Shown: positions 1-11,821 of the stretch, in pieces
Numbering within the stretch: the first letter of the stretch is position 1
How the letters are laid out: the number at the start of each line of letters is the position of its first letter
IMG/VR virus record: IMGVR_UViG_3300048924_000587
Location: 1-41,981 of that record
Direction: 5' to 3' (one strand)
From: a virus
Length of the DNA stretch: 41,981 bases
Position numbers and translations under genes: made by a program
The notes under the pieces: model-generated
What the model was told of the DNA's origin: nothing
The model's input: only the letters and a program-made list of their open reading frames with translations
The model's database searches: none

Positions 1-1140
1 TCAGGTCTTTTCTGACGTGCCAACGACGGGAACATCGAAGTCGTAGACGTCGAGCATCTGCTGCGATTTGTGGCCGCTGGCCTGTTGCTTCTCGCCACGC
101 GTGCCCTTCGTGTCGGTGATGCCCTTACGCTTCAGGTCGTGCGGGCCGAAGCGCTGTTCGGCTGTGATCACTCCATCGGCGATCGCGAGCTTCATCAGCC
201 GCTGGAACGCGCTGTCGAAACTGCTCTTTGCGAGAGGTCCGCCGGTCTGGTTCACGAAGACAGGCCGATCCTTCGCATGCATGGGAATGGGCATGCGCCT
301 GACTTGCCAGATGGAATCGCGCCGTTCCTTTATCATCTCCCACGCCTCGGTCAGTCGCGGTGTCCACGCCACGACGTTGTCCCTGGAGCCTTTGACTCGA
401 TTCGTCATCAGCCCATTAGGCAGCTCGGCGTCCTCCATAAGAGTGATGACTTCGATGCCGCGCAGCCGGCACAGATACATGATCTCGACGGCAGGCCAGA
501 GGTAAGCAGCCAACGCGCCTTTCCGGTGTGCCGTCCAGGCGCCGCGGCTACGCGCAAAGTCTGCGAGGTTCTTGAGCACCTGGTCGTCGGGGAGCCTGCG
601 ACGCTTCCTCTCTTTGGCTTGCTCGAGTCCTGCGCACGGGTTGTGCTCGCAGTACCCGCGGTTCTTCGCCCATCGAAACATGCGGCGTAGGTATCGAAGC
701 AGCGCGTTCGCCTTTGTCGGCGTGCCTTGGTCGGCGATCTTGTCGATGATCTTCTGCATCAGCGGCGCGGATAGCCCGCGCACGGCAAGCGTGCCCAGCT
801 TGCCGGCGGCAGTCGGGAACTCGCTGGCCACCTTCTGGTATTTCTCGTATCCGTCCTGCGTCGCTGGCGCGAGGCTGCGAAACTTCTCGCTGGCCGCAAA
901 CTGCTCCATCACGAAGTCCAGCGATCGTCTATCGATGCCGGCGAGCTGCTCCATGACGCGGTGAAGGTCGGACATCAGGGCCGAAGAATCGGCGACCTTC
1001 CGGCGCGCCGTCTTTGTCCCGCCGAGGATCGTGTACCAAACGCGGTCCCGCTTATCCCAGTAGCAGCCCTTGGGCAGCTTGGACTGGTCGATGTGGTCCG
1101 GAATGGAGGCATCCGGCCGCCGTGGGCGTCCTACGGGCAT
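1..1140 (-). CDS. int: Phage tyrosine integrase
   Basis: This 379-residue protein is a site-specific tyrosine recombinase that would integrate and excise the prophage. The N-terminal half resembles a SAM-like core-binding domain (about residues 55-165). The catalytic half shows the box I arginine in the motif LCRLRGIEV, the box II motif HDLKRKG (H334, with K337/R338 in place of the usual HxxR), H357 in SGHKS and the nucleophile Y366 in VYDFD. Length is normal for the family. It is the last gene of the leftward early operon, and its ATG overlaps the stop of the excisionase-like gene (TAATG). The window starts exactly at its stop codon, so the attachment site expected beyond it is not visible. 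Confidence 0.96.
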   Translation of the reverse strand: MPVGRPRRPDASIPDHIDQSKLPKGCYWDKRDRVWYTILGGTKTARRKVADSSALMSDLHRVMEQLAGIDRRSLDFVMEQFAASEKFRSLAPATQDGYEKYQKVASEFPTAAGKLGTLAVRGLSAPLMQKIIDKIADQGTPTKANALLRYLRRMFRWAKNRGYCEHNPCAGLEQAKERKRRRLPDDQVLKNLADFARSRGAWTAHRKGALAAYLWPAVEIMYLCRLRGIEVITLMEDAELPNGLMTNRVKGSRDNVVAWTPRLTEAWEMIKERRDSIWQVRRMPIPMHAKDRPVFVNQTGGPLAKSSFDSAFQRLMKLAIADGVITAEQRFGPHDLKRKGITDTKGTRGEKQQASGHKSQQMLDVYDFDVPVVGTSEKT

Positions 1141-1346
1141 TACACGATGTCCGGCGAATAGGCGTGGTCGTTGGCCGCCGAGGATACGCCCAGTGCCTTG
1201 TTGATGGCTTCCAGGGTGGTCCAGGGGCCATCAGCGCCCTCGCTCACAGGGATTCCCTGATTGCTCGCCCATCGCTTCACTGCCGCTGCCTGCTGTAGGC
1301 CGGACAGGCGTCGAAGTTCCGATGCGTCAATGATGTGGTGGTTCAC
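1140..1346 (-). CDS. DUF4224-like protein, probable excisionase/regulator
   Basis: A 68-residue protein starting at a GTG that is preceded by AAGGAGG at good spacing, which decides this start over a longer in-frame ATG. The sequence has the DUF4224 pattern: ASELRRLSGLQQ, then a predicted short helix-turn-helix with KRWASNQGIP, then a small wing. Proteins of this family usually sit immediately upstream of phage integrases and are thought to act as DNA-binding recombination directionality factors. Here it overlaps int by one base and overlaps the preceding gene through GTGA. The function is inferred from family and position. Confidence 0.72.
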   Translation of the reverse strand: MNHHIIDASELRRLSGLQQAAAVKRWASNQGIPVSEGADGPWTTLEAINKALGVSSAANDHAYSPDIV

Positions 1347-1609
1347 GGCTTCGCCGCCTCCTTCGATAGAGCGTGTGCGGTGTGACGGGCGTAGGTCGAA
1401 ACGGCTCGCCAATACGCGGCCATCGGGCCCTTGCGCTTAGCCCAAGCCTTTTCTGCTTCGGTGTTCGCCTGGTGACGGAGTTGACGCAATAGGTCTTCGA
1501 GCGGCGCCCGCTGAGCCGCCGGCAGTTCCGACAAGGCTCTTCCGGCGGGCAGTTGGAGCAACGGATTGAGGTAGCCCATCAGCGCACCCCCGCGAGAGAT
1601 ATCCGGCAT
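1343..1609 (-). CDS. Small early protein of unknown function
   Basis: An 88-residue (or 78-residue, from the ATG at 1579) basic, Ala/Leu-rich protein that I do not recognise. It appears mostly helical and has a Lys/Arg-rich stretch near AEKAWAKRKG. The stop overlaps the GTG start of the excisionase-like gene, which indicates translational coupling. The second ATG has a G-rich upstream sequence that could serve as ribosome-binding site. No cysteine motif, signal peptide or membrane segment is visible. Confidence 0.55.
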   Translation of the reverse strand: MPDISRGGALMGYLNPLLQLPAGRALSELPAAQRAPLEDLLRQLRHQANTEAEKAWAKRKGPMAAYWRAVSTYARHTAHALSKEAAKP

Positions 1610-1651
1610 ACCCGATAATCGGCAATTACAGGCGGTAGTACATGTTCGCGC

Positions 1652-1714
1652 TTGTCCACCGCGCCCGACGCCTGCACCATGGCGCCATTCATCAGGATGG
1701 GGATTTCACGCATG
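1652..1714 (+). repeat. Upstream element of plus-strand cassette 1 (copy A)
   Basis: This 63-bp stretch is colinear with 2229-2291. Both copies read TTG, then 20 bases, then CACCAT (1675-1680), then 12 bases, then a 22-base block from CAGGATGGGGA to the start codon (1693-1714) that differs at only one position. The block includes a G-rich ribosome-binding sequence 8 bases from the ATG. The reading frame is open through both copies, so some similarity may be old coding homology. Spacing TTG-N20-CACCAT resembles promoter geometry, but the -10 match is poor. Confidence 0.6.
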
Positions 1715-1975
1715 TGGTACACCGTTGGCAAGTACGTGGTCATGACCGGTTCCCGCTCCGAAGAGCCCGGGAAGTGGTTTGCGGACTGGACGATCAGCGA
1801 AATTCAGGAGGACGGCGCCCTCCGGTCCATTACGCATGGGCGAGGAAAGCCACTGTCCGAGCAACCGATGGACGCGGCTGAAGGCGCCGTTCCTTTGGGA
1901 GTCGAAGAGGCGCGCCGACTGCAGGGCGACATGACGCTGCCATTCACCCCGTACCGTCCGACGATGGGCAAGTAG
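1712..1975 (+). CDS. Hypothetical protein in reversed cassette 1
   Basis: An 87-residue protein encoded against the direction of the surrounding operon. The start is chosen because AGGATGGGGA lies 8 bases upstream and the same leader precedes the next plus-strand gene. The protein starts MWYTVGKYVVM, is rather hydrophilic and carries acidic and proline-containing segments. No recognisable domain or membrane segment is seen. It ends 5 bases before the stop of the convergent minus-strand gene. Orientation and isolated expression signals suggest a moron. A competing minus-strand reading frame exists but looks less protein-like. Confidence 0.5.
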   Translation: MWYTVGKYVVMTGSRSEEPGKWFADWTISEIQEDGALRSITHGRGKPLSEQPMDAAEGAVPLGVEEARRLQGDMTLPFTPYRPTMGK

Positions 1976-1980
1976 TTGCC

Positions 1981-2214
1981 TCACGACCCCACCTCACCGA
2001 TCTCTGCACATCCCGTATCAGCCGTTGCGACGATTCGATCCGTTGCCGAGTAGAGGCGCCATTCGGCGATACCCACTGATAGCTCGGGAACGGGAGGCTG
2101 ATCTTCCGTATAGAAGACTTCGTAACCGTCGACTCGCGTGACGTAGAACGTGCGCTGCCCATTGGTCAGAACATCGCCTGGAGCGGGGTTAATACGCGGG
2201 TCCCGATCAGCCAC
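1981..2214 (-). CDS. Small early protein of unknown function
   Basis: A 77-residue protein beginning at GTG with the ribosome-binding sequence GGAGGTG six bases upstream. The 16-base start context (2211-2226) is identical to that of the gene starting at 3205. The sequence suggests a small beta-rich fold (GQRTFYVTRVDGYEVFYTE) and is acidic at the C-terminus. It is not recognised. It lies between the two reversed cassettes and was probably part of a continuous early operon before they were inserted. Confidence 0.6.
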   Translation of the reverse strand: MADRDPRINPAPGDVLTNGQRTFYVTRVDGYEVFYTEDQPPVPELSVGIAEWRLYSATDRIVATADTGCAEIGEVGS

Positions 2215-2228
2215 GGGGCACCTCCGTC

Positions 2229-2291
2229 TTGCGGCCTTCGCGTATGGCGAGCACCATCGATCTATTGAACAGGATGGGGAGTTCACGCATG
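2229..2291 (+). repeat. Upstream element of plus-strand cassette 2 (copy B)
   Basis: The partner of 1652-1714, with the same spacing of TTG, CACCAT (2252-2257) and the 22-base block ending in the start codon (2270-2291). The 21-of-22 identity immediately before two otherwise unrelated plus-strand genes is more than a shared Shine-Dalgarno sequence would give. It may be a common expression leader or a recombination boundary. Confidence 0.6.
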
Positions 2292-2873
2292 GCAGGAGGT
2301 CCGGAAATATTCGGGATCGCAGTCGGCGACATTGCGACCTGGGTAGGCGCCGCTATGTCGTTCGCCGCTGTAGTTACCGCGCTTAGGCTTGCCGGCCGCG
2401 AATCGCGCGAAAAACGACGGGATAGTGAGGATCTTGAGCGCGTATTTGCTCCTGCGGTTGCTGAGGAACTGTTGCAGATCCGATGGGTATGCGACCAGAT
2501 TGTGAGAATCTGGAACAGCGACACTGGAGTCGGACGTCGTTACAGAGACATGTATGAGCATCTCGGAAGCCTGAGGGCGCCGACGCTTGATCTCGTTGCT
2601 TCGCGCGACGTTTATCGCGGCGAGCGTGGAAGGAAACTGATGAGCCTTTACGCAGCTCTCCTTCGACAGGCTGCAGACATGCCACATTTTGCTCGGCCAG
2701 GAAACGAGGACGTCCTTGAGTTTCCGGCAAGTGACATAGCCGGGACGGCGAGGGAGATTTACCAGCAAGCGGAAGCCGCTTTGACTTTGATCTGGCAGGT
2801 CACACCGCACCCGTTGACCCCGATACCGGCTTCGCATGAACCGCCCGGGTATCGCGCGCGCGTCGCAGGCTGA
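2289..2873 (+). CDS. Membrane-anchored hypothetical protein in reversed cassette 2
   Basis: A 194-residue protein with one N-terminal hydrophobic segment (about residues 8-34, from FGIAVGDIATWVG to ALRLAG) followed by a charged RESREKRRDSEDLERV stretch and a mainly helical soluble domain. This gives a likely single-pass inner-membrane anchor with a cytoplasmic domain. The gene runs opposite to the early operon, has its own ribosome-binding site and ends 5 bases before the stop of the convergent gene. Such membrane-anchored morons often change the surface or exclude other phages, but no family is recognised here and the function is inference. Confidence 0.65.
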   Translation: MAGGPEIFGIAVGDIATWVGAAMSFAAVVTALRLAGRESREKRRDSEDLERVFAPAVAEELLQIRWVCDQIVRIWNSDTGVGRRYRDMYEHLGSLRAPTLDLVASRDVYRGERGRKLMSLYAALLRQAADMPHFARPGNEDVLEFPASDIAGTAREIYQQAEAALTLIWQVTPHPLTPIPASHEPPGYRARVAG

Positions 2874-2878
2874 AACAA

Positions 2879-3205
2879 TCACGGCTGCACCTCCCCGTTA
2901 CCTGCCATGCCGGTATCGGGCAGAAGCTTGATGCGCTGATGGCCTAGCATTCCGGTGGCGGCGAGCATGCGTCCGCCAGGAAGCGACATGAGATGCCCGA
3001 GGATCGAAGCCTCCCGCTTCGCAACTTCGAGCCGACGCTCTTTCTCTTCTGGGGACAGCTTCGCCCACCTCTCGGCAATCCGTTTCTGCCGCTGCAACTC
3101 AGCATCGTAGGCGCGGCGCCCCTCATCGGCTCGCTTTTGCTTGGCGGCTTCCACAGCTCCTGCCACGCGCTGGTCACGCGTGCCGCGACGCTTAGCCTCA
3201 CCCAC
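2879..3205 (-). CDS. Small basic helical early protein (MGEAKRR type)
   Basis: A 108-residue protein starting at GTG, with N-terminus (M)GEAKRRGTRDQRVA. It is strongly charged and predicted as a long helix or coiled coil between residues 10 and 65 (AAKQKRADEGRRAYDAE and EEKERRLEVAKREA). The MGEAKRR opening is common in small phage and bacterial proteins of unknown role. The start has GGAGGTG at ideal spacing and overlaps the preceding gene by 8 bases. Its own stop region carries a second GGAGGTG followed by GTGA, the signature of a coupled downstream gene that is no longer there. Confidence 0.65.
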   Translation of the reverse strand: MGEAKRRGTRDQRVAGAVEAAKQKRADEGRRAYDAELQRQKRIAERWAKLSPEEKERRLEVAKREASILGHLMSLPGGRMLAATGMLGHQRIKLLPDTGMAGNGEVQP

Positions 3206-3545
3206 GGGGCACCTCCGGCGCGGCCGCAAGCGGCATCCAGTGGGTTGGGTGCAATACGTAATCGTCGTTTCTCCACGACTGGCCGTTCCAGTGCCCGATC
3301 GCACGGCTGCAGGTGAAACCGTCAACACGCTGGCCATAAAGAAGAACGTCCGATCCGTCCATCGGTGCGGTGTCGATCGGTCGCCACTCAGGCAGTGCGG
3401 CTCGCAGTTCTTGCACGAGGTCGCAAAGGCCCGTGATGTGCTCTTCAGCAGCCGAAGCCACCGGAAAAGCCTTGACGTAGTTACGCGAGTACTGGAGAGC
3501 CATCGCGCACTTCCGGTCGAGCGGCTGATCGTCGTAGTAGCTCAC
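3198..3545 (-). CDS. DUF551-like phage protein
   Basis: A 115-residue protein starting at a GTG that overlaps the stop of the upstream gene (GTGA). The C-terminal half has the pattern WRPIDTAPMDGSDVLLY then GHWNGQSW and THWMPL, typical of the DUF551 family found in phage early regions. The biochemical role of that family is unknown. It overlaps the downstream gene by 8 bases, as expected within one transcript. Confidence 0.7.
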   Translation of the reverse strand: MSYYDDQPLDRKCAMALQYSRNYVKAFPVASAAEEHITGLCDLVQELRAALPEWRPIDTAPMDGSDVLLYGQRVDGFTCSRAIGHWNGQSWRNDDYVLHPTHWMPLAAAPEVPRG

Positions 3546-7687: not shown

Positions 7688-8203
7688 CTAAAAGGGAATC
7701 GTGTCGTCGTCAAAGCCATCGTCTGCCGGTGCGGCGGACTGGGGCGGCTTGTCGTGGGTGCGCTGGGCAAAGTCACGTTGCGCACGGCCCTTGCCGGTGC
7801 CACCGTTGGAGCGCTCACCGCCGCCGTAGCGCGACTCGCCGTAACGGTCTGACGGACGGTCCGAGGGCTGGCCGCCGAGCATCTGCATCTCGTTGCCGAT
7901 GATGTCGGTCGAGTAGCGCTCGATGCCGTCTTTGTCGGTGTACTTATCGGTGCGCAGCGATCCTTCGATGTAGACCTGGCGACCTTTCTTCAGGTACTCG
8001 CCTGCGATCTCGGCCAGCTTCCCGAAGAGCTTCACGCGGTGCCACTCAGTGCGCTCCTGCTTCTCGCCGGAGTGCTTGTCGGTCCAGGCTTCGGAGGTCG
8101 CGATGCGCAGCGACGTGATGGCCGTGCCGCTGCCCGTGTAGCGTGTCTCCGGATCTGCGCCGAGGTTGCCGACGATGATCACTTTGTTGATGCCGCGAGC
8201 CAT
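7688..8203 (-). CDS. ssb: Single-stranded DNA-binding protein
   Basis: A 171-residue SSB. The OB fold spans residues 1-108, with the typical opening [33 protein letters not shown] and [15 protein letters not shown] Gly/Arg/Ser-rich linker and the acidic tip DDDTIPF follow; this tip is the docking site for replication and repair partners. Length is typical of bacterial-type SSBs. It sits in the leftward early operon and its ATG overlaps the stop of the preceding gene (TAATG). It should support phage DNA replication and recombination. Confidence 0.97.
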
Positions 8204-11641: not shown

Positions 11642-11821
11642 CGTGGGCGCCGACGCGCTCGTGCTGCTGGCCTTCGCTTTGTGCGCGCTCTGGCCCACGA
11701 GGAAGCGGGCAGGGCGCTGACGCTCCACCGCTTCGACGTTCCCTGATTCCCCTGTCGTGATCTCCATGGTGACGACTCTACCAACCGGGCCCACGCGGCT
11801 CACCATTTGAGATTGACCCGC

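Follow-up and report, generated by a model that had tools for sequence, protein, structure and literature searches.

Why should a phage operon that is read in one direction be broken twice by single genes that are read in the other? The question is raised by IMG/VR virus record IMGVR_UViG_3300048924_000587, a contig of 41,981 bases analysed over its whole length (the window), in which two plus-strand open reading frames (ORFs), 1712–1975 with 87 amino acids (aa) and 2289–2873 with 194 aa, lie inside a minus-strand operon. Each follows a colinear element of 63 base pairs (bp), the two copies being identical at 21 of the 22 bases up to the ATG, and a preliminary description had taken the pair for interchangeable slots with fixed ends. 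We refer to the element as the header, to the gene behind it as the cargo and to both together as a cassette. As judged by sequence comparison, the two genes probably belong to a family of cassettes, each a single reversed gene behind a promoter-like header, which occupy the early operon on the integrase and excisionase (int/xis) side in temperate phages that infect Rhodanobacteraceae (Dyella, Luteibacter and their relatives). The features concerned are as follows (nt, nucleotides; SD, Shine-Dalgarno sequence; E, expectation value; pLDDT, predicted local distance difference test score).

1651..1714, plus strand: header of cassette 1, promoter-like, with TTGTCC at 1652-1657, 17 nt, CACCAT at 1675-1680, SD-like GGGGAT at 1699-1704 and ATG at 1712
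1712..1975, plus strand: cargo 1, 87 aa, family A, with an AlphaFold2 model of beta-beta-beta-beta-alpha form (mean pLDDT 92.4)
2228..2291, plus strand: header of cassette 2, promoter-like, with TTGCGG at 2229-2234, 17 nt, CACCAT at 2252-2257, SD GGGGAG at 2276-2281 and ATG at 2289
2289..2873, plus strand: cargo 2, 194 aa, family B, with an N-terminal hydrophobic segment and a predicted helical domain
1579-1713, minus strand: ORF with an ASCH-relic start, 44 aa, beginning MREIPILMNGAMV (MREIPILMN...), its start antisense in header 1
1706..1984, minus strand: antisense frame across cargo 1, 92 codons, open and in register, its GTG overlapping the TGA of the gene at 1981-2214
1981..1996, minus strand: start signal GAGGTGGGGTCGTGA, the CACCTC/TCACG of the preliminary description
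1981..2214, minus strand: gene between the cassettes, 77 aa, phrog_23694
2207-2290, minus strand: ASCH-gene relic, 27 aa, reading MRELPILFNRSMVLAIREGRKTEVPRG to its stop (it begins MRELPILFN...), the first 23 residues matching phrog_874 (E 2e-5)
2283..2882, minus strand: antisense frame across cargo 2, 199 codons, open and in register, with a GTGA-coupled start and a TGA overlapping the ATG of 2207-2290
2879..2894, minus strand: start signal GGAGGTGCAGCCGTGA

Genome scans located the header again in prophages of Dyella and Luteibacter and in those of their relatives; at up to two mismatches the element occurs in 36 of 234 genomes of the Dyella/Luteibacter family, with few matches for a reversed-pattern control. 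An exact scan of IMG/VR for its 20-base sequence AGGATGGGGANTTCACGCATG found 11 contigs, all of which have an ORF of 66–235 aa at that ATG and no two of which have the same protein. After manual removal of chance pattern matches (e.g. L013, L019–L023, L045, L056–L058, L063, L065) there were 44 distinct cargo ORFs, which fell into 23 BLASTP clusters, and 59 distinct plus-strand cargos are now known behind the header, with homology between phages ending at the ATG. The end is sharp: among 143 pairs of loci whose left flanks align up to the ATG, homology is lost within 15 nt past it in 140. Two pairs, L007/L069 (unrelated cargos of 74 aa) and L008/L067, share both flanks and differ in the cargo. 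The preliminary description had suggested aligning related prophages at the same locus, and phages with int/xis of the window's type do have different plus-strand genes behind the same header: positions 1–1581 are 90.5% identical to L005, after which the cargo differs, while int/xis identity is 85% in L008 and 80% in L074, and the cargos of these three have 184 aa (L005), 204 aa (L008) and 88 aa (L074) compared to 87 aa in the window. Searching with cargo 2 and blind to the header, we found three relatives in the 234 genomes, all at header sites; scans of IMG/VR proteins with cargo 1 or cargo 2 returned no relatives. These comparisons establish, at the level of aligned loci, a cassette whose 5' end is fixed, whose 3' end is free and whose cargo is swapped at the start codon. 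The database genomes number one per species, and rates of exchange are not derivable from them.

Cassettes also stand in tandem, at L006 (three), L017, L040, L041, L042, L049 and L051, and the spacing from stop to next start is 46–67 nt in six of these loci, the size of a header. In the arrays of L017, L042 and L051 a cargo of 67–68 aa with a membrane segment (L017_1142 type) precedes a family B cargo, possibly as a pair. At L015 and L028 an ATT replaces the ATG after the header and no cargo is obvious, possibly a decayed cassette. Single-gene units, tandem arrays and a fixed 5' boundary would also be found in integron-like cassettes moved by site-specific recombination, an explanation whose chances we consider next to nil: integron cargo is promoterless and followed by attC, whereas each unit here has a promoter-like header and is oriented against the operon, and 43 cassettes have no shared 3' sequence (no 9-mer is common to more than two cargo 3' ends).

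The numbers given earlier for the 3' ends are correct, both genes stopping 5 bases before the opposing TCA and the words TCACG...CACCTC being alike at 14 of 18 bases. They had been read as a cassette boundary, however, and on the minus strand they are CGTGA, a GTGA start/stop overlap, with its Shine-Dalgarno GAGGTG, and not the end of the cargo; in relatives the distance from cargo end to opposing stop is 2, 5, 8, 11 ... bases, as an in-register rule gives, rather than a constant 5. The idea of a swap slot thus largely holds at the level of sequence, by virtue of the different genes behind the header and the flank-matched swaps, and its fixed 3' end does not.

Start signals of this kind allow a simpler view, that the minus strand holds ordinary operon genes and the plus ORFs are antisense shadows in GC-rich DNA. 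The antisense frames do have Shine-Dalgarno and GTGA starts and stops overlapping the next gene, as normal operon genes have, and a test of amino-acid composition is neutral for cargo 2 (-0.04 bits/codon). Over the cargos, however, composition favours the plus strand in 39 of 43, and cargo 1 has a confident predicted fold. In all 13 homologous cargo pairs plus-strand codon position 3 is the most variable (mismatches 476, 387 and 786 at positions 1–3), and the plus translation outscores the in-register antisense translation 1.7–3.4 times, whereas empty-site controls, where the minus gene is real, have the reversed pattern (253, 123, 145). By the measure of substitution pattern the coding strand of the cargos is shown to be plus, which leaves the shadow explanation very improbable indeed.

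The opposite strand of the cargo nonetheless appears to be kept readable. Both antisense frames are open, and between 3205 and the int end one minus frame follows the other without a gap through both cargos, with successive overlaps of 4, 8, 8, 4, 8, 1, 4 and 1 nt. The antisense frame ends at the TGA of CATGCGTGA in the header, which overlaps the next ATG by 8 nt, as at 1706..1984 with the ATG of 1579-1713. Near the cargo end, 21 loci have a minus start that overlaps the stop codon of the minus ORF before it, and at 20 of them this start shares the register of the antisense frame (16/17, p 3e-7, in the first set and 4/4 in the second).

An in-register antisense stop is produced by the sense codons TTA, CTA and TCA. 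In 43 cargos TCA and CTA stand at 1.9% (12/645), compared to 17.0% for other A-ending codons (NNA; 442/2594, six four-fold boxes); the TCA and CTA share is 5.6% in reference genes and 8.7% in ASCH genes, and use of A-ending codons in the cargos is twice that of the reference genes. Having formed the idea of stop avoidance on these 43, we tested it on 16 previously unused cargos, which gave 2/237 (0.8%) against 168/944 for other NNA (p 3e-15). Cargos free of any in-register antisense stop number 33/43, and 14/16 out of sample. Controls matched for GC content at the third codon position (GC3) have no such gap (TCA and CTA 13–22%, other NNA 16–23%), the two codon shares rise and fall in parallel across all GC3 levels among 221 other genes from these loci, and of the 46 genes with GC3 below 0.72 just 3 are free of antisense stops. 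In a family of 79 aa, members in cassettes have at most one antisense stop, which then lies near the end. Close homologues that are not in cassettes contain one to three, and a distant one, L262, contains none. Codon counts and frame coupling together show, as far as sequence comparison can, an antisense frame kept free of stops and coupled at both ends to the minus-strand operon.

Open, coupled and co-terminal antisense frames would also be expected if both strands encode functional proteins, the antisense frame being an overprinted second gene. There is precedent in Pseudomonas phage Fc02, where each of the opposite-strand genes olg1 and gene 10 is reported to exclude phages (PMC9936078). 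The antisense translations are however poorly conserved relative to plus (e.g. 165 versus 452), and the constraint is apparently on the absence of stops only, so we consider overprinting unlikely. A functional antisense protein, or some different reason, is nevertheless an alternative ground for stop avoidance. The explanation we put forward, for which we see about an even prospect, is a translated noncontiguous operon, in which cargo codons would be selected for antisense transparency and ribosomes would relay across opposite-strand, exchangeable genes without polarity. In the lysogen the early operon would be silent and the header would express the cargo; upon induction or infection the early operon would be transcribed across the cassette and the cargo shut down. 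Ribosomes would then traverse the cassette in the open antisense frame, sparing the downstream ASCH, xis and int genes polarity. Stops are likely avoided because an untranslated stretch would lower downstream expression of these genes by Rho-dependent polarity. Cargo may have moved by homologous recombination in the header and flanks.

Read on the plus strand, the header runs TTG-N17-CACCAT, GGGGAG, ATG, with the appearance of a sigma-70-type promoter and a ribosome site. No further copy is found in the window at up to three mismatches (shuffles expect 0), and a model of 65 positions, built with both window sites included, finds exactly these two (1651–1714, E 8e-16; 2228–2291, E 3e-18). On the minus strand the same 63 bp correspond to some 25 codons at the start of an ASCH-domain gene (phrog_874), whose full-length relatives carry the domain, and both relic ATGs overlap the cargo ATGs as CATG. 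The preliminary description had foreseen that the element might prove to be coding homology between paralogues; it is indeed coding homology, but the partner is the N-terminus of an ASCH gene on the other strand rather than a paralogous cargo gene. The ORF at 2207-2290, considered as an ASCH family member, was rejected as a relic because only its first 23 residues match the profile. Beside the header of L005 a minus-strand DUF1643 gene (E 1e-39, residues 32–165) starts with MRELPILMNGAMV, an ASCH relic from the header that is here joined to another gene.

It might then be argued that there is no special header, only a conserved ASCH start whose neighbours change through the usual mosaic recombination. 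ASCH genes are common among phages, and in 16 of 44 leaders the element does code for the ASCH protein. The other 28 lie in non-ASCH contexts, however, so that the header element persists where the ASCH gene is gone. In these 28 the spacer from about -57 to -38 is near random (mostly 0–0.3 bits), whereas A at -36 (1.8 bits), T at -32 (2.0 bits) and the stretch from -18 to the ATG, with the leader and Shine-Dalgarno, are retained; TTG lies at exactly -60 in 13 of 29 non-ASCH contexts, compared to 0–3 at other positions. The key -10 positions A and T are kept in 44 of 45 leaders, and where the ASCH Met-Val codons are missing, CACCAT is replaced by TATCCT or TAATCT (TAnnnT) in four of six.

Empty sites point in the same direction. 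In Pseudomonas F116, Serratia Eta, Burkholderia BgManors32 and Klebsiella and Pantoea phages, the gene before ASCH lies on the same strand as ASCH; the two mostly overlap by 4 nt, and ASCH has a Shine-Dalgarno. Among 74 further ASCH loci of IMG/VR a same-strand upstream ORF is present in 51 and a clear reversed cargo in one only (L124). In the host family, ASCH genes of M[KR]ERP type are mostly empty, with a different start context and their own Shine-Dalgarno, whereas those of MRELP type carry cargo and lack one; L040/L179 is an MRERP-type gene with cargo, and a broader scan again separates the two states. As sole DNA query among phage records the header gave a single weak match, in a Pantoea phage, which was set aside as an ordinary empty-site ASCH gene. 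We thus regard an ASCH start with mosaic neighbours as quite improbable. The simplest history is that the portable header arose from a promoter that lay within the ASCH start region, on the antisense strand.

Profile clustering of the 59 cargos placed 12, of 71–97 aa and including cargo 1, in family A and 22, including cargo 2, in family B; 34 of the 59 are thus in two hyperdiverse superfamilies, and the slots are not filled by free assortment. A hydrophobic segment is present in 26 of 30 cargos longer than 100 aa, and the earlier suggestion that one of the two window genes encodes a membrane-anchored protein agrees with the anchor-like N-terminal segment of cargo 2. Some family B cargos (e.g. 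L010 and L017) resemble each other in the N-terminal membrane segment, with 53% identity confined to the first 66 residues, and are unrelated towards the C-terminus, which suggests within-gene exchange. A fold search with cargo 1 in the PDB and viral models gave nothing significant (best E 0.07, 0.02), a profile search found no solved relatives, and the AlphaFold2 model of cargo 2 (mean pLDDT 48.8) was too low for use. Scans of the cargos with Pfam, PHROGs, PADLOC and NCBIfam gave nothing functional, only phrog_33632, a family with no assigned function. That the cargo benefits the lysogen, for instance through superinfection exclusion, is a tentative guess.

Several observations weigh against the account as a whole. 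Loci were mostly collected by header, and because of this the link between header and cargo is partly there by construction; independent of that collection are the sharp end of homology at the ATG, the swaps between matched flanks, the search that began from the cargo and the codon test on previously unused cargos. Chance matches were dropped by hand. The 79-aa family has relatives behind headers and elsewhere, so that cargo homologues do occur outside cassettes, and an antisense stop is present in 10/43 and 2/16 cargos. Part of the header's conservation is ASCH coding. Its promoter hexamers are weak (3/6 each) and a generic scan found no promoter and no terminator-like site in 1500–3300, so the promoter is a putative one. 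Finally, PADLOC found no defence-family match in 42 cargos, with one match at chance level (E 0.014).

The remainder of the window is laid out as in lambda, with a leftward operon and a rightward part.

1..3205, minus strand: portion of the left operon with overlapping frames in unbroken relay, ending with an ORF at 1343-1579, excisionase (from 1346) and integrase (1-1140)
Leftward operon as a whole: int at 1-1140, excisionase, small genes, DNA methyltransferases and SSB at 7688-8203
Rightward part: CII-like protein at 11807, replication initiator, DnaB, Q-like antiterminator, terminase and tape measure

The record begins exactly at the integrase stop codon, and the attachment-site side is cut off. 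A junction, GGAGGTGCCCCGTGG, is identical at 2210–2226 and 3201–3217, where the stop of ...EVPRG overlaps a GTG start, and forms a second repeated gene boundary in the minus operon, apart from the header. The window's left end has no close DNA relatives among phage records. The host most likely lies in Rhodanobacteraceae, since L005, close to positions 1–1581, is one and the same locus as in genome G118, whose family counts Dyella mobilis and Luteibacter sp. among its members; Dyella and Luteibacter are soil bacteria.

If the proposal is right, translation of the opposite strand imposes selection on the codons that a gene is permitted, an effect that can be measured, as avoidance of antisense stops, from sequence alone. 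It suggests a phage strategy for swapping genes in an operon that is needed: each gene goes in reversed, under a promoter of its own, and the opposite strand stays readable. The two hyperdiverse families are likely tuned by phage–phage or phage–host conflict, and the ~63-bp header provides a handle for extracting many unannotated prophage genes from genomes.

Among known systems, sieB of lambda and P22 is a membrane protein gene reversed in the left operon with its own promoter. The cassettes resemble it in cargo position and membrane anchor, and no cargo has a family in Pfam, NCBIfam or PADLOC, SieB-type or other; sieB differs in being one gene and not a swap slot. In P22 the sas antisense RNA acts on sieB, and an antisense position to lytic genes has been called characteristic of moron and prophage accessory loci (PMC7067206). 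Such loci, like the cassettes, are extra, orientation-breaking genes with a promoter-like header, and the cargos are, as morons are, added relative to related phages and exchangeable; no terminator of their own is seen (no terminator-like site in 1500–3300), and the cassettes differ in their shared portable header, their arrays and their avoidance of antisense stops. The anti-phage hotspots of P2 and P4 have variable genes between conserved phage genes (PMC9122126), as here, whereas the cassettes hold single genes without a match to known defence families behind a header nested in a coding gene. In Fc02, at olg1 and gene 10, a lysogeny-expressed gene is fully antisense to a lytic-operon gene (PMC9936078), but this is one locus with two functional proteins and not a cassette family. 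The layout is that of the noncontiguous operon, a reversed gene inside an operon, as in menE-menC-MW1733-ytkD of Staphylococcus aureus (PMC7154746); in phage 80alpha the noncontiguous operon of Tha and Ith switches defence between lysogeny and lysis (PMC11087260). The cassettes likewise place an opposite-strand gene within an operon, both cargos lying inside the coupled minus series from 3205 to 1. The antisense part of such an mRNA has been described as untranslated (PMC7154746), however, whereas in the cassettes this part is spanned by an open frame with coupled ends, and phages swap the reversed gene behind a header that stays the same.
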